Source: Lentinus brumalis (Eukaryota; Basidiomycota; Agaricomycetes; Polyporales; Polyporaceae). Taken from it: a DNA stretch of 64,000 nt. Position 1 is the stretch's first letter. Each line of letters opens with the position of its first letter. Positions 5,951 through 49,115 of this stretch are shown in pieces. The stretch is from NCBI GenBank assembly GCA_001792895.1, contig MARA01000001.1, positions 1,984,001-2,048,000 on the forward strand, given 5' to 3'. The notes beneath the pieces were generated by a model. That model did no database searches, was not told where the DNA came from, and worked only from the letters and a program-made list of their open reading frames with translations. Both the position numbers and the translations under genes were made by a program.

Positions 5951-7309
5951 TGATACGGCAGCTGCGTCTCTGAGGGCGGAACACCCAACAAATGACAACA
6001 ACCAACCTGAAAGGGTGCGAGTGGGCTAGTCGATTCTCGGTCGAGCGGCGACGAAGTCGAGCGTCGGAGGTTCGCGAAGTCGAAGAGCTCGAAAGGGGGA
6101 GGGAAGAAGGCGAAAGTGGTGCGAGGGAAAAGGGGAATCGGCGAGGTGTCGGCGATATATAGCCTAACGACGAATAGCCGTCGGCAAGACGAAACCACGA
6201 GGCACTCCGGCCTCGATGCGAAGACTCTGCGACGCGATAGTGCGACGAATCGGCCCCGTCCTGGGTGCGCGAGACGACGAAGTCCTTCCTGGACAACTTG
6301 GGGCCACGATAGGCTGGGGAGACCACGATAGGTCGACTGGGTCACGATAGACCGACTAGGGCCACGATAGGCCGAACGCGAAGGCTCTTCTTGAGCGAAA
6401 CCGGCCCTTCCTGGGCTACCCTTCCTGGGCTACTTGCTGGGTCGACGATGCGACACTGGCCGACGATACGGCGAAACTATGAGAAGACTCTGCGACTCAG
6501 CTGGACCTTGGACTTGGAGCGACTCCGGCTCGAAACTGGCGAAAACGTCGAAGAGCGTCGAAACGACCGCGAAACGAGAGCTCGTGACGGAGAGGGGGAA
6601 AGGTTCTCTGATTCGGAGTGTAGATGGTGGGGGGAAGGGAAGGGGGCCTCTGACTAGATGCTGTACATGCTGTTCGACGATATGGTACGACGAAGCGCGC
6701 GATTCGGCCTATGACTAAGCAACAAAAACCAATCAGAGCCAAACACGAGGCTAATCGCGTGATGCGACAACGACGGCGCCGACAACGCCGAACAGGCGCT
6801 AGGCGCACGGACCAGGTCGAACGATCGCAACATAATGACGCGATCGACGAATCGCGCCGATTGACACAAAGCGAAGGGGACGAAATGAACTAAGGCAAGG
6901 TCGAACCAAACTGTATAGTAAAGGGGGAAGGGACAAGACTCAAAGGCTCAAAGGCTCGAATAGACGAAGGGTCGCAGGGTCGATGAACTGACGAATCGAC
7001 GAACGGACGAATTGCTGGCCATGGGAGTGAAGACAAAGGCTGGTCGACGACTGTCGAACGCAAAGGACTATGGTTCGACGTCGTTCGAGAGTCGAGGTGG
7101 GAGGTGATGGTCGAGCAAGGACAAATGATGACTACCAAGGCCGACTGGGGACGATATAGGCCGACGATAGCTCGCAGGTTGGCCGATGAGGCCGAAGGAG
7201 CGCAGGAGAAGGGCAGGAGGACGGCGAAATGGACGATAGTGAGGATAGGGAGTCGATAGAGGTGCAAGAGGTCGCAAAATCGGGGCACAGACCAGTATGA
7301 TGCACATCA
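5951..7309 (-). repeat. LTR, left copy (3' LTR of the element)
   Basis: 1,359 bp direct repeat of 9252-10614. It begins TGATACGGCAG and ends GATGCACATCA. Because the element is on the minus strand, this copy is its downstream LTR, preceded on that strand by the polypurine tract at about 7310-7321. Confidence 0.9.
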
Positions 7310-7321
7310 TCCCCTCCCCAC
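7310..7321 (-). other. Polypurine tract
   Basis: Minus strand GTGGGGAGGGGA directly abutting the LTR. In LTR retrotransposons such a tract primes plus-strand DNA synthesis. Its position fixes the element's orientation. Confidence 0.75.
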
Positions 7322-7555
7322 TGAGATATGGACTGTCCTCAGTCCTCGAAACATGACGATGACGATGGGCGACCGAGACGATGGACGAAAATGGGGCAAG
7401 GGCTCTAATGATGAGATGGTTGACGAAGGGACGATGAAGACGAAGGTCGAGATAGGTAGACAATGAAGGACAGGGCTGCGATGCTGAGCTTCGACGACGA
7501 AGGGGATAGGAATAGGGAAGACGATCGAGTGGGCTTCGAGCGCGATTGTCGCATC

Positions 7556-9145
7556 ACAGTGTGTAGACATAGCCATCTTGACGACGATTCGGTCGACGAT
7601 CGGGGTTCTGGTCGTAGTAGGCAAGCATCGCTTCACGAATCGTCGAGCCATCGCCTCGATGAGTAGGGATTTTGCAGTCGTTCGACAACAGCACATGACC
7701 TCCAGGACGATCGCGAACCACGAGACCTGCGCGAACATCGGCCTCGACGACTGGACAGATCGTGATGCTACAGGCCGACTCGCCACAGTAGTAGCAAGGG
7801 GACGATCTTCGGCTCGCTGTGCGACATTGGCGAATAGGGTGCCAACTTGACGATGTCCAGGAGGATAGCGAGGGGGACCATCAGGGAAGCGACCATCGCT
7901 GACCCGAGGGGGCTGCTCGACACGCTGCGACACTGCCTCGTCATCGCGAACGGTGCGAATCGCAGCTGCGACGATCTGCTCTAAGACCTCGCTCTTGATC
8001 GTCAGATCGTTCGGCTCGTTCGTGTTCGTGGCATGAGGGTGCGAAGGGGGAGCAACGAGCTTGGGGGACGAAGGACGAAGGGGCTCACGATAGAGAGGCT
8101 CGCGATAGACGACCGCAGCGAAGGCAGGCCGATCGTCAATAACATGCACAATCGCTTCGTGGACTTGATCGACTGTGTACGAGTCTTCGCGATGCTTATC
8201 GGGGACTTTCAGGCTAAGTCGAGCTTCGACAGCGGGTCGACGATCGTTGTGGATGAGACGAAGGAGTGTGTTGACGACTTGGTGATGGGTGAGCTCTGGG
8301 GGCGATTTCGACATCAGGTATCGAGCGATGGGGTAGAATTCGCCGTAGAAAGCCATGTACTCCGCGAGCGAACCGATGCCAGAGCGAACCCGCGACGACA
8401 CGACATTGTCGAACTCGCGAAGAGTGAACTTGTGATCCTTGTCAGAGCCGAGATAGAAGCTAAGGATCTGGGCACGAAAGTCGATGAACGACATCGACAC
8501 ATCGGCGAACGATGGAAGCGACTCCCAGCGCTTTGCAATGTCGATCGGTACGTAGATGAGCGCGGCTTCCTTTCGTTCGGCGTCGTCGGTGACCTGGTAC
8601 TTTGCCATCACGCGTTCGAGGTCGCGGAAGTATAGTTCGACGCCTTCACGGCTCGTCGCGATCCACTGCGGGGTGCCACGTTCGTTCGAGAGGGGCATAC
8701 TGTCGACCTTGCGCTGAGCCATGGTAGACGATGAAGGGGGAGAGGGAATGGACTGGGGAGGGACTAGGGGTGGTACTGGAGGGGCGATCGTCGATTGAGG
8801 TGTCGACGAAGAGGGGGCTTTAGCGCGCGAAGGCCGTTTCGGCGGAGGGAGATTCTTTTCGAGAGGTGGAAGAAGGGGGATGCCTTGTTCGCGTTGTTCT
8901 CGGCGAGTGATGTGCGAACCTGACGCTATGTTCGACAGCGACGGCGAACGAGGACGAGGCGAAAGATGAGGGGACAATGGCCGCGATGCTTGGGGTGAGG
9001 GCAATAGCGGTGTAAGCGACGAAGCGAACGATTTCTTCGAAGGGGATGAGGGTGCCGTGGCGAAGCCGAAAGACTCGTCGAACTGTTCGGCACGGTGGTA
9101 CTCGTCGTCTAGTTCGATGGATAAATCGCGAAGGAGCTCGGTCAC
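7556..9145 (-). CDS. Gag polyprotein with zinc knuckle, one frame break
   Basis: The main frame starts at Met 9145 and runs through a Pro/Ser-rich N-terminus into a capsid-like core: SREGVELYFRDLERVMAKY, DDAERKEAALIYV, WESLPSF, LREFDNVVSSR, LAEYMAFYGEFYPIARYL. This is the usual Gag fold of fungal Ty3/Gypsy elements. A zinc knuckle, CYYCGESACSITIC (C-x2-C-x4-C-x4-C), followed by VRAGLVVRD and ending at a stop near 7558, is in another frame. It joins the core just after AEDR. One extra C in the 4-C run near 7810 would restore one frame, so this is either a recent frameshift or a sequencing error. The literal main frame continues to 7307 but looks non-homologous after the break. The third knuckle ligand is Cys where most retroelements have His. 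Confidence 0.75.
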
Positions 9146-21383: not shown

Positions 21384-21388
21384 GGCCG

Positions 21389-21534
21389 TGTTGAAATTTG
21401 GAAGTGGCAGAAGTGGCCGACTTATAGTGAAAATGTTAATTGGACACGCCGGGAGTCGAACCACGGGTCTCGTCACAAGTTCACAAGTGCGTGTGTTATG
21501 CCATTACACTACGCGCCCATTACATACTTCAACA
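21389..21534 (-). repeat. TRIM LTR, left copy
   Basis: 146 bp, identical to 21681-21826. Terminal inverted heptamer TGTTGAA/TTCAACA. Confidence 0.9.
21441..21518 (-). tRNA. tRNA-like sequence in LTR (degenerate, His-like)
   Basis: Read on the minus strand: acceptor arms GGGCGCG and CGTGTCC pair over all seven positions (two G-U), with discriminator A. The A-box region is TAGTGTAATGG, with D-stem GTGT/ACAC. The B box GGTTCGACTCC is perfect. The T-stem CCGGG/CCCGG is complete except for one bulged U. The anticodon arm is abnormal: CGCAC, then TTGTGAA, then an 8 bp tandem duplication (tcacaagt twice on the plus strand), so it is longer than normal. The loop suggests GUG (His), but that is a guess. 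It is 78 nt and probably not a working tRNA, though the Pol III promoter boxes are intact. Confidence 0.6.
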
Positions 21535-21667
21535 CGCGCCCTCAGCCAGTGTAAATCTCAAGTTTACACCTGGATGAACCACTTTACGCAGGCTTTCAAC
21601 GGGCCTAACCATCAGTCTGTCACCCATACCACAGGGTCCGTAAGACTGCATACAGTAGCACCCCGCA

Positions 21668-21680
21668 GGCATGTCCACCA
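21668..21680 (-). other. TRIM primer-binding site
   Basis: Minus strand TGGTGGACATGCC, directly at the LTR end. Its complement GGCATGTCCACCA matches, in 12 of 13 positions, the 3' end of the LTR's own tRNA-like sequence (GGCGTGTCCA) after addition of CCA. The one difference still allows a G-U pair. Confidence 0.7.
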
Positions 21681-21826
21681 TGTTGAAATTTGGAAGTGGC
21701 AGAAGTGGCCGACTTATAGTGAAAATGTTAATTGGACACGCCGGGAGTCGAACCACGGGTCTCGTCACAAGTTCACAAGTGCGTGTGTTATGCCATTACA
21801 CTACGCGCCCATTACATACTTCAACA
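21681..21826 (-). repeat. TRIM LTR, right copy
   Basis: 146 bp, identical to 21389-21534. It is the upstream LTR in element orientation, followed directly by the primer-binding site. Confidence 0.9.
21733..21810 (-). tRNA. tRNA-like sequence in second LTR
   Basis: Identical second copy of the tRNA-shaped module, 292 bp from the first. Same intact A and B boxes and same disturbed anticodon arm. Confidence 0.6.
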
Positions 21827-21831
21827 GGCCG

Positions 21832-24500
21832 GACGAGGAGGTGCGACATGTCGAGAGGAACGTCATGTAGCCCGTTCCTGCGCAGTCATGTCATGTCCGA
21901 CTCCGACCGGATGACATGAATACGGGAAGACAACGCGCACGGGTCGCTGCGCCGTTTTGTCATACTAACTTCTACACTCTGTGTGTATGACAGTGGGCGG
22001 ATTCAAGGTAGAAGACGGTAGTTACCTGCCTGAAGGTCTCTCAGCGTGAGATAGCGGTCGAGCGAGCCGCACCGACAAGCCCGGATTCGGGGACTGGCCT
22101 TCGCAAGGCGACACGGTCTATAAGTTGCGGGCATCACCCCACGCGAGTGTTCAAGAAAAGAATGATGATTATGGGGTCCATGTTCAGGTATACTTAGAGT
22201 GGACGCGCCGCGGGGGTAAGTATGCGCGAGCACATCGCCTACCATGAAGTACTCGCAGTGTCGCATTGCTGGATGACGTCGAGCCACAGGTACCTGACGG
22301 CTTTCCAGGTGAGCACGAAGGCCCATGCAGTACCGATATCCGTGCGCACCTCCGTCACTAAGCTCGTGTCGCCAGTGGAGGTTCGGCAACGCAGCGAGGA
22401 GGTCAGGGAGGTGGCATCATAACAATGCCATATGTCGAGCACGAGGGTTGAGAAGTTGGGGAAGCAATGTTGAACATTGTGTGAGTCGTACAAAAAGGCG
22501 AAGGTTTATAGGTACAGTGTTTCCAGTGTCGGGGCGCAATGGAAATGGACCGAGAATGACACACGGCGGCGATCCATACGTCAGGAAGGTTCGAGCTCGC
22601 CGAAGGGAGCCCCGAGTGTACGTATCTGGGAAAGCGCATGGATGTTGGTGAGTTTTGGCCGCGACAGATATGTGGGCGAAGCGACGGCTGGGAGCAAGGC
22701 TTCACCGTTGCTGCGTCTGAACGAATATACGGCTGTCTCAACTGACAGGCTCCCTGGTCCTGAGAACTGCTCGAGGAGATCTGGAAACATGCGGGAACCT
22801 CTCAGGGGTCCGTGGGATAAGTACGCGCAGGTAGGAAGTGCGGATTGCGTCCTCTGGGAGACAGCACTTGACGATGGAGGGAAAACGACACCCGAGTGAA
22901 GTTCAGCCCTGCCCGGGTTTCGGGGAGTGGCCTTAGCGATGAACACGTTGAGGGAGGGGATTCACGAAGTGTGCTGTTGGACGGCATGTCTGGAGAGGAG
23001 CTTTGGAGACGGTGGGTGTGGTCGATAACGTGACGGGCTGCGAAAGATACTGATTGAATGAGAATCAATGTCAGTTGGGATCGAGCGGCGGACAGGGAGC
23101 GTTGGAGATGACCCCACCTGTGCGTGTCGGGCGACCGAGGGCGGTGGCGTCTTGCGTACGGATGAGTCCGGCGGATACTGTGAGGCAGTCGGAGGCTGCT
23201 AGTTTGTTAGTCATCGTGGCGTAGGGCGAGGTGGATGGGACGCCTTTATGCCTTACATGATAGTGCAATACCTCCCGATCGGGCCCGAATGGGGTTCGTG
23301 TACAAGGTGATCACCACGGGGCAATGGAAAGCTTTCGCGGGGTGTCAAGTGACGACCAAGGGTGGCCTGTTGAGCGTGCGTGCGACTGAGTACGATGCGG
23401 GAGATGAAGGTGCAGGCACAAAAGCCTGGTTCTTAAGGCGGATAGACGGTCGTTTGGTTCATATTTGTCGATCACACCACAGCAACTTGTACGTTGGCTC
23501 TCTATGAGGCTGGAATGTGGGGTTGCAGAGCATGGTGATGGACAAGGTGGGAGAGAGGTGGCGCACCGAGAGGACGACCTACACCGAGACAAAGGGGAAT
23601 GGAGTAAAGTTATGAATTGAAGGGAATGTTCCCTTCGGGGTACAGCGAGAAGATCGGTACTGCTAGAACGAAACATATTGTGCGGACACGATGTGTCAGG
23701 GGACGGAAACGCTCAGTGATAATGGACGAAGGGAGGAGGAGAGGAAGATAATACTGGCGTGGTGAGGGGCATGACAGATGGCTAGGAGAAGAACCGAAGA
23801 AGCAAGGTTGGTGGTGGTGAACATGATGCAGACAGAACGGGCGGTTGGACGAGGTTGAGTCGTTGTACAACACGAAGGAGCATCTCGGTTGGGGGACAGT
23901 GGGAAGTTGGTGCAGAGCGCTTCGGTAGTTGACCGCGACCAACGAGCGCTGGTGGTAAGTGCGCGAGATGTCGGGAGATTCGACGGATGGCGGTAACCGA
24001 GGACAGGGCGTGCGGCGACGCGCGGACAATGGGCGCATTGGTAAAGATGGGCCGCGCCCGCCGGCCCGGAATAGGTTACCAGGGCGCCACGGAAATTGGA
24101 GGACGCGGGGAGAGACGCTGGAGGGAAAAGCCAGGGAGGCGCTCACTGGTCGACCAAATTTTGAACGCGACTACATCGACATGGAAGCATGCTATGGTGA
24201 AAATGGCATTTTTCTCGTACTCGGGGACAGTGAAAGGTGTAGTGTACCAAGTAGTGCAGTGGTGGGATGAGGAGGGGAGGAGCTGTAAAACGGGGTTGAC
24301 AGATGCTTCATAGGGGAGGCAAGAGCAGCAATTTGGATGACCGATGATTCATCGCGGGTGACAATATACCATTTTGCTCTTTGTGCCGCCGCTATGACAT
24401 CACGCGTCATTGCTGCTGCCTCCCTTTCGACGCGAGAGTTTGGCGAGAGTCCCGACAATACCGCTGACCATGTTCTGCAGAGCCATACATCCAGTCTATC
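21832..24500. other. Intergenic, no gene recognised
   Basis: 2.7 kb. A minus-strand frame at 22239-22493 contains hydrophobic stretches (GTAWAFVLTWKAVRYLW) faintly like seven-helix fungal membrane proteins, but no exon chain could be built. Nothing is supported. Confidence 0.4.
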
Positions 24501-46712: not shown

Positions 46713-49115
46713 ATGGCAGATATGGATCCGGGGTTCGCTGGCATACCCCGACCGAATCCCATGGACAGCGGGGGAGGGGGCACCGGGACAGCGCTGCCGC
46801 ATCTGGTGAGCCAATTCTAGACTCCTTGTGACATATGTGATTCTAAGCTACCACAGCCCATGCCGGAGTCTCAGAATGATACAGATGACCCGTGGTCTCG
46901 TGGCGCGAAGCTCAGGGCATACTGGGAGTCGCGGAAGACCTTCTTCACCGAAGAGCAGCACAGGCAGGCCTGGGAGGCAACCGCTGACATTGTGAAGAAG
47001 GCTAGCGATGAGATGGTAGAACGATGGAACAAGGAGATCGATACTCTCCTTGTCTACGTGCGTCTGTCACAATCTTGGTATCAACGTACATAGCTCATTC
47101 ACTCAACAGGCCGGACTTTTCTCCGCAATCCTCACCGCATTCAACGTCCAATCCTATCCGCTCCTCACTCCTCCTCCTCCGGATCAAGTCCTTCTGGCGT
47201 TGCAGCAGATATCCTCCCAGCTCAGCAGTTACTCCGTGAGCTCGTCCTCCGTCAACGCCACCTACCCTGCCTTCAACCTGCAACCATCCTCCCTATCCCC
47301 TCCCCCGGAGCGATGGGTCGTCTGGCTCAACGCAGTATGGTTTGCAAGTCTCATACTCAGCCTGTCGGCGGCCTCCGTCGGTATCATGGTGAAGCAGTGG
47401 CTTAACCAGTACTCCTCCTGCCTCTCCGGGAGCTCGCAGCACATCGCGCGTCTGCGTCAGCACCGCCTGAACAGCTTGCTGAAGTGGCGTGTTGGCAGGA
47501 TCATCGCATTTCTGCCTATCCTTCTCCAGATGGGCGCGGTGCTCTTCTTCGCCGGCCTTCTTGTCCTCCTGTGGGCTCTTCATCACACCGTGGCGATCGT
47601 TGCAAGCACTCTGGTCGGCGCTCTGGCATCCTTCTTGGTGGGGACCATCGTCATACCGGCATTCACCAGTGATTGTCCCTACCTCTCTCCAGCATCCTTT
47701 GCTGTCTGTGAGACCCTGCATCCCATATTCCGTTTATGGTATCGTTTCCGGAAGTGGTTGTACGACTGGTATTTGGGCACTATCGATGTGCGCTGGTATA
47801 GAACCACTCGGAGAATGCACCCCCTCATCTCGGCCGCTAAGAAGACTCTGGATAGCTTGTGCAGCTATCCGTGTGACCTCTCCCTCGGTCTTCCCACTCG
47901 CGGCAGAGAGTTACGTGCTGTCACCCGGGAGAAAACCCGGTTAGACGGAGATATGGTGGCCACTGCCTACAGCATCGTCATGGATTCCCGCTATCTGGAC
48001 ATGGCCGCGGTCTGCTTCACTGGTATCAGCCTCGGTGACACAGTCGTGTGCTTTGATAAAATACGAACGCAGGACGCGAGACATTCGGAGGGACAAAGGT
48101 GTTATCCCTCACGCATGTGGAGCGGTGTCGTAGTGGGATTGCTGTGCTGTCGCTGGCCTTCGCCTGTCCCACATCCGATAGGCGACCCCCGCCTTTGGTC
48201 ATCAAACAGACTGAAGAAGGCAATTCGTTGCCTATCCGAATCCGTTCTTGACCTCGAACGGTTGGACGGTCCGCCATCGGCATGGACACGTCTGTCGTGC
48301 GCCGACTATCTTCATGCTATACGCAGCAGCAACTCCCCCTTGACTACCAGCCCACAGGCCGACAGCCGTACGGTACCGAGTCTCCTGCTGCAGTCATTTT
48401 ATTCATGGATGACAAGAATCGATCCCGACCATGATTGGCTTAGCAGTGACCGGGACCTATGCATAACCAGTAGGTTTTCGTCTTCTGGCCTCTCAGTGTC
48501 GTGCTGACTTCGGAAACATTCCTTAGTTGTTGTTGTAATGGCCGATGTTGCCTCGTGGTCGGGTCCATGCTCGGGATGGGAAGCCCAAGGCTATGCACTT
48601 CGCTGTCTTCTTGGGTGCATTCCCCGCCCCGACGCTCGAGACTTCGACGCAGAGACCTTTTGGGAGATAATACCCCATGCCAACAAAGCATTGCTGTACT
48701 TCGCCGATGCTTTGTTCAAGTTGATGAACAATGGAGAGGAAGCCGACTCGGATCCTGTCCTCCTGGCGGTATTGGGTGTCTGCAGCGAGTTATGGCGCTT
48801 TGAGATAGTGCCAGAGTACGGAAAGGTGGCTGGATTCCCCCCTTCGCAGTTCGTGGAGGCCGTACATAACTATCTCTGCCTTCGGGAGAACGAGGGGCTG
48901 GAAGGCACACTCGAACGGCTGTGGTCTGAACCAGCACTGTTTTGGAAGGTTCGAGAGCAAGTCGACGCTTATCGGTGCGGCGGCGATAGGCAACAAGTAC
49001 GCACATCTCAGTCACATCTCCTTGCTTTGTAGGACTGACATCGTTCTTTCCTCGTTAGAACGCCGTAAATCCTGGAATATCGGTCCTTCCTGTATACGAG
49101 GACGACAGCCTCTGA
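46713..49115 (+). CDS. DUF6535 membrane protein (5 exons)
   Basis: Exons 46713-46805, 46857-47057, 47110-48469, 48527-48996 and 49059-49115 give 726 residues, all phases consistent. The Gly-rich start (DSGGGGTGTALP) precedes a soluble helical part with KASDEMVERWNKEIDTLL. The family hallmark follows: AGLFSAILTAFNVQSYPLL, VVWLNAVWFASLILSLSAASVGIMVKQW (about 167-195) and HIARLRQHRLNSLLKWRV. Further membrane helices lie near 229-255 and 258-282, then SDCPYLSPASFAVC. This is the Agaricomycete DUF6535 family, probably plasma- or endomembrane proteins of unknown role. The cytosolic C-terminal half is helical and unassigned. The exon 3 donor at 48470 (gtaggt) was chosen because it alone gives the right phase for exon 4. 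Confidence 0.85.

Follow-up and report, generated by a model that had tools for sequence, protein, structure and literature searches.

A 438-bp Helenus-type TRIM element whose tRNA-like LTR module matches its own primer-binding site

TRIM elements with small-RNA genes in their LTRs

The primer of most LTR elements is a tRNA taken from the host, and in Tf1 the 5' end of the element's RNA pairs with the primer-binding site (PBS). Two kinds of TRIM element are known to carry a small-RNA sequence in the LTR, namely Cassandra with 5S rRNA and Helenus ('TRIMp3') with a tRNA-like sequence (Kojima 2024, PMC10886601). Helenus was described from fungi (113 families in rusts, as well as Agaricus, Coprinopsis and Amylostereum), animals and a lycophyte; its A box reads TRGCY..YGG in most cases and its B box GGTTC, and tRNA-derived SINEs (SINE2) were proposed as the source of the module. 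The primers named for fungal Helenus are tRNAs for Tyr, Ile, Asp, Asn and iMet, most of them used by the anticodon loop, and the fungal partners are Copia elements. According to section 3.6 of the same paper, the LTR tRNA and the PBS were not found to be complementary, and it was concluded that the LTR tRNA therefore takes no part in priming (PMC10886601).

The element considered here was found in a 64,000-nucleotide stretch of the Lentinus brumalis genome (the window) and, as judged by its structure, is a member of Helenus. It shares with this group the size class (311–1263 bp), the tRNA-like sequence in both LTRs, the GGTTC B box, the PBS behind the 5' LTR, the 5-bp duplication of the fungal families, shortness without coding capacity and the occurrence in Agaricomycetes. 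Where most Helenus A boxes have TRGCY..YGG, the element reads TAGTG..TGG. The type itself is not new, having been described in 2024. There are two differences. The primer type is the 3' end of tRNA-Ala, unlike the fungal primers listed above, and the LTR module pairs with the PBS over 13 of 13 bases, so by its sequence the element is an exception to the printed absence of such complementarity in Helenus.

Other known systems resemble the element in part. Cassandra likewise has a small-RNA gene with a Pol III promoter in both TRIM LTRs, but its captured RNA is 5S rRNA rather than tRNA and has no link to the primer; no 5S rRNA was found in the LTR here, and at the curated cut-off nothing but tRNA is matched by Rfam in the window. 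Self-priming of the Tf1/Sushi type (PMC6317226) would be similar in that a primer from the element's own RNA pairs with its own PBS; in contrast to Tf1, the stretch that would pair here is an inner, tRNA-acceptor-like one, at 69–78 of the predicted transcript. With SINE2 elements the locus shares a tRNA-derived Pol III promoter, but it differs from them by its LTRs, its PBS and its 5-bp duplication, and its route of movement would be that of LTR elements. In the literature searched, mostly open-access, no other report of an LTR tRNA matching its own PBS was found.

Structure of the element and of its tRNA-like module

The features are collected in the table. The proposal of a TRIM with two identical 146-bp LTRs, an internal part of 146 bp and a GGCCG duplication was borne out in full, the complete element measuring 438 bp. 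The LTR termini TGTTGAA...TTCAACA are exact. Since the PBS comes after the LTR on the minus strand, this strand is the element's sense, and the tRNA-like module has the same sense. No stop-to-stop reading frames of at least 220 codons were found within the element.

Table. Coordinates of the element and its parts in the window
Feature	Position	Strand	Remarks
Target site duplication GGCCG	21384..21388	.	exact copy
3' LTR, 146 bp	21389..21534	-	identical to other LTR
T4 run 8 nt behind 3' LTR module	21430..21433	-	possible Pol III terminator
tRNA-like module, 3' LTR	21441..21518	-	RF00005, 35.8 bits
Internal part, 146 bp, non-coding	21535..21680	-	single copy in genome at the search's sensitivity
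Weak polypurine-like stretch TGAGGGCGCG before 3' LTR	21535..21544	-	weakly purine-rich, at polypurine tract position; read from sequence
PBS TGGTGGACATGCC	21668..21680	-	pairs with module 3' end + CCA, 13/13
5' LTR, 146 bp	21681..21826	-	identical to other LTR
T4 run behind 5' LTR module	21722..21725	-	possible leaky terminator
tRNA-like module, 5' LTR	21733..21810	-	RF00005, 35.8 bits
Target site duplication GGCCG	21827..21831	.	exact copy

Some observations concern the surroundings. The last seven letters of the internal part, GGGCGCG (21535–21541, minus strand), are also those of the module's 5' acceptor strand, perhaps by chance. An inverted repeat with 14-nt arms, 86% complementary, lies 50 bp past the element (21881–21924). 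Elsewhere in the window there are a long reading frame, gag-like by eye (7307–9145, minus strand), for which no Pfam family and no match to the proteins compared were found, and a reading frame with DUF6535 (47020–48504, plus strand; PF20153, E 4.4e-42). A protein encoded in the window shows 52% identity to a Polyporus arcularius protein.

The 78-nt module of each LTR matches the Rfam tRNA model RF00005 at full model length (35.8 bits against a cut-off of 29; E 0.00082 in 64 kb), in agreement with what had been noticed from the letters. The B box GGTTCGACTCC is perfect, and the acceptor stem, as read from the sequence, has seven pairs, two of them G-U; it contains G3:U70 and A73, known as alanine identity elements. 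In the anticodon arm ACTTGTGA is doubled, the T stem has a bulged U, and ARAGORN called no tRNA at either module of the element. The module looks more like a promoter-bearing relic than like a working tRNA.

The supposed Pol III transcription is suited by the layout of A and B boxes and T4 run, and it stays a prediction. There is one T4 run per LTR and none in the internal part, although the absence of T4 elsewhere in the element is no more than chance would give (P about 0.71). In a survey of 30 rows, in which one gene appeared twice, the first T run behind the host tRNA gene was T4 in 11 of 29 distinct genes and at least five T in the other 18; for this reason, the T4 behind the module may stop some transcripts and let others pass.

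In the genome searched (53.4 Mb, 136 contigs), no second copy of the internal part was found at the sensitivity of the search. Two further LTRs of about 80% identity, both single LTR units, are located on contigs C64 and C115. Both keep the LTR ends, which read TGATGAA...TTCAACA, and their tRNA part is recognisable but damaged: the doubled anticodon stretch is kept in altered form, the B box reads GGTTCGCC, the A-box region is shortened in C115, and neither copy was reached by the Rfam tRNA search at E 10. The T4 run behind the module is present in the window element and in C64, and C115 reads CTTC at this place. No 5-bp duplication was seen by eye at these solo copies (L002 and L003); their flanks are 78–87% alike, so we regard both as descending from a single old insertion that was duplicated afterwards.

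The parentage of the module was sought among 14 host tRNAs, five of which entered the full-length ranking without the 5' acceptor strand; the host set itself was drawn from 63 scored of 1265 candidates, from two D-arm types and, for one pattern, from the first among its 113 places. At full length, a tRNA-Ala(AGC) gene at C81:230746 came first (z 13.0), followed by the common form of tRNA-Ala(AGC) (z 8.1) and Glu (z 7.8), and the acceptor of the module is identical to that of the first gene at 14 of 15 letters. Without the acceptor stem, alanine fell to fifth place (z 5.9), behind Gln, Asp and Glu (7.0) and Gly(CCC) (6.2). The alanine-like character, as far as the letters go, is limited to the acceptor stem, the core having no alanine specificity, and, because of this fall in rank, descent of the module from tRNA-Ala is not established.

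The suggestion that the element captured its primer by copying through it is not supported. In the established replication scheme, such copying leaves the tRNA in antisense orientation, next to the PBS and not within the LTR, and the actual module stands in sense orientation inside the LTR. Among the places listed, there are also repeated tRNA-like sequences, provided with A and B boxes, that cannot readily be taken for host tRNA genes, namely C47:113885 with C2:1303937, C46:829122 with C47:801523, and C49:1390214, C83:70039 and C22:27636, along with further pairs on C23, C56, C57 and C76; these could be SINEs or additional LTR-borne modules.

Pairing of the primer-binding site with the module and with host tRNA-Ala

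The PBS adjoins the LTR directly, and all 13 of its bases pair with the encoded module 3' end GGCGUGUCCA plus CCA, by 12 Watson–Crick pairs and one G-U, as the initial annotation had stated. The complementarity exceeds chance. When the ten encoded 3' letters were shuffled, the duplex energy was equalled in 1 of 20,000 trials. Among 2,000 shuffled LTRs, 4 contained a site with equal complementarity to the encoded part of the PBS. Besides the PBS, the internal RNA has two runs of 8 with other parts of the module, which is unremarkable; with tRNA-Ala(AGC) it has two runs of 10, rich in G-U, in a comparison made with no control.

None of 19 host tRNA 3' ends tested equalled the duplex energy of the module, the best being tRNA-Ala(AGC), and among the tRNA 3' ends found there was none that fits the PBS much better than the module. 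The 3' ends to be compared are GGCGTGTCCA for the module and GGACATGTCCA for host tRNA-Ala(AGC). Identity to the PBS complement is 12/13 for both on 13 letters and 14/18 for both on 18 letters. The duplex is stronger for the module than for the host tRNA, by 3.4 kcal/mol over 13 nt (-24.9 vs -21.5) and by 1.9 kcal/mol over 18 nt (-26.1 vs -24.2). The common tRNA-Ala(AGC) 3' end pairs over 11 consecutive bases, with a mismatch next. As the identities are equal and the two candidates are favoured by one base each (the module by PBS position 12, the host tRNA by position 10), the candidate primers cannot be told apart by sequence alone.

The genome has 20 sites at which RTGTCCA, free of mismatches, stands suitably spaced behind a B box, against 8 for the reversed-pattern control. 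They comprise 10 tRNA-Ala(AGC) genes, 6 tRNA-Ala(CGC) genes, 2 LTR copies and 2 sites of neither kind, the isotypes being read by eye and confirmed by ARAGORN for one of each kind. By eye, the introns of the tRNA-Ala(AGC) genes L053–L062 and L048 vary in length and sequence between copies.

An alanine-type PBS is also found in another LTR element of this genome, a 9,682-bp stretch that has 521-bp LTRs of 99% identity at its two ends (L086, C35:1118160–1127841). Its PBS TGGTGGACACGTCCGGGA is perfectly complementary, over 18 nt, to the 3' end plus CCA of the tRNA-Ala(AGC) gene at C81:230746, and this makes it likely that tRNA-Ala serves as a primer of LTR elements here. L086 and the TRIM share the CAACA end and the PBS type only, the PBS of L086 starting one base (T) behind the LTR end and that of the TRIM directly; L086, known here from its LTRs and PBS, is a possible partner of the TRIM. 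Primers of the tRNA-Ala type were reported for plant Ty3/gypsy non-chromoviruses (PMC6317226). A genome search with TGGTGGACRTGYC gave 19 places (reversed-pattern control 6), at which an LTR upstream was shown for the TRIM only, with CA upstream at L067 and L068. CAACA followed after 0–3 nt by TGGTGGACR occurs at nine places (control 2), namely the TRIM, L086, L083, L088, L091, L085, L087, L089 and L090, among which an LTR pair was confirmed at L086. L083, L088 and L091 share CAACA and the PBS-like stretch TGGTGGACGCACTGGG and have frames that are gag-like by eye; the frame of L083 has nine related proteins, two of them named in UniRef for a retrotransposon gag domain, and Trametes and Laccaria are represented among these nine matches. 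No Pfam family was found for the three frames submitted, from L083, L088 and L086.

Possible routes of priming and their meaning

In our opinion, with about as much doubt as confidence, the locus is best explained as a 438-bp Helenus-type TRIM whose LTR module and PBS carry matching alanine-type acceptor sequences, whose transcription is predicted to be driven by Pol III and whose likely primer is host tRNA-Ala. The A and B boxes of the module would start transcription near LTR position 17, and the T4 behind it would be read through in part in the 5' LTR and would end transcription in the 3' LTR. The read-through RNA would have 381 nt, including a repeat of about 89 nt at either end, a layout that suits strand transfer. 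Enzymes of a tRNA-Ala-primed LTR element could copy this RNA in trans from the tRNA-Ala 3' end on the PBS, with integration generating the 5-bp duplication. The module would be foremost a promoter; by matching the PBS it would imitate the primer end, and it may compete with the host tRNA or take its place. Host priming is supported by the ten tRNA-Ala(AGC) genes and the 11 consecutive pairs; the stronger duplex of the module counts against it, as do, for a tRNA-Ala-primed partner, the other primers and Copia partners of fungal Helenus in PMC10886601.

The sequence match itself is plain; as to its function, it is in keeping alike with coincidence, with priming by host tRNA-Ala and with an element that supplies its own primer. 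It is possible, although we incline against it, that a Helenus promoter and a PBS are each of the alanine type by chance, with no functional link. Modules like tRNA-Ala(AGC) and tRNA-Ala(TGC) occur in the LTRs of high-copy rust Helenus (table 2, PMC10886601), a tRNA-Ala PBS is present in L086, and with well over 100 Helenus families described one chance match would be unremarkable. Against this stand the absence of Ala from the fungal Helenus primers named in that paper and the fifth place of alanine without the acceptor stem, so that a simple origin from tRNA-Ala does not account for the match in the acceptor. Such a coincidence is compatible with priming by host tRNA-Ala, so its likelihood overlaps that of the favoured explanation, and the likelihoods given here need not sum to one. 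Tandem tRNA-derived, SINE-like repeats with a chance spacer, instead of an LTR element, seem very improbable: the module is SINE-like and the copies elsewhere are single LTR units, but the 146-bp repeats are identical, have TG...CA ends and an outer 5-bp duplication, the PBS follows directly behind the LTR, and the two other copies share the ends of the unit.

Rather unlikely is the idea that the element carries its own primer, either as LTR-module RNA, trimmed and provided with CCA, that is used in trans, or as a module 3' end that folds back onto the PBS and primes after cutting. The 13/13 pairing gives the strongest duplex of 20 ends compared, and the T4 run stands at the place expected for the end of a tRNA gene. 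When the predicted 381-nt RNA is folded to minimum energy, PBS and module 3' end are paired (probabilities 0.73–0.77 at nine PBS bases, 0.42–0.49 at the other four of the 13), the partners of the PBS being partly other than CCA. By parsimony over an alignment of the three LTRs, the older module 3' end would also have been CGTGTCCA. On the other side, the ten host tRNA-Ala(AGC) genes equal the module by identity, one PBS base prefers the module and one the host tRNA, and processing and CCA addition of the module are doubtful owing to its faulty anticodon arm, bulged T stem and lack of an ARAGORN call. We are similarly doubtful of a variant in which the LTR serves as promoter, as terminator and as the gene of the primer tRNA, the Pol III output being split by a leaky T4 into a short tRNA-like primer and a full-length template. 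A primer supplied in cis, as first proposed, is conceivable but unneeded, host tRNA-Ala(AGC) fitting about equally and being matched by the PBS of L086.

Host tRNA-Ala would thus be the more likely primer than the LTR module, with a self-supplied or mimicked primer as a possibility. A TRIM whose own PBS is matched by a sequence encoded in its LTR would demonstrate a way for an element to become independent of the host primer, and the present one provides a concrete exception to the printed statement that Helenus shows no such match. Even with the host tRNA as primer, the alanine type shared by promoter and primer bears on the origin of tRNA-bearing LTRs.
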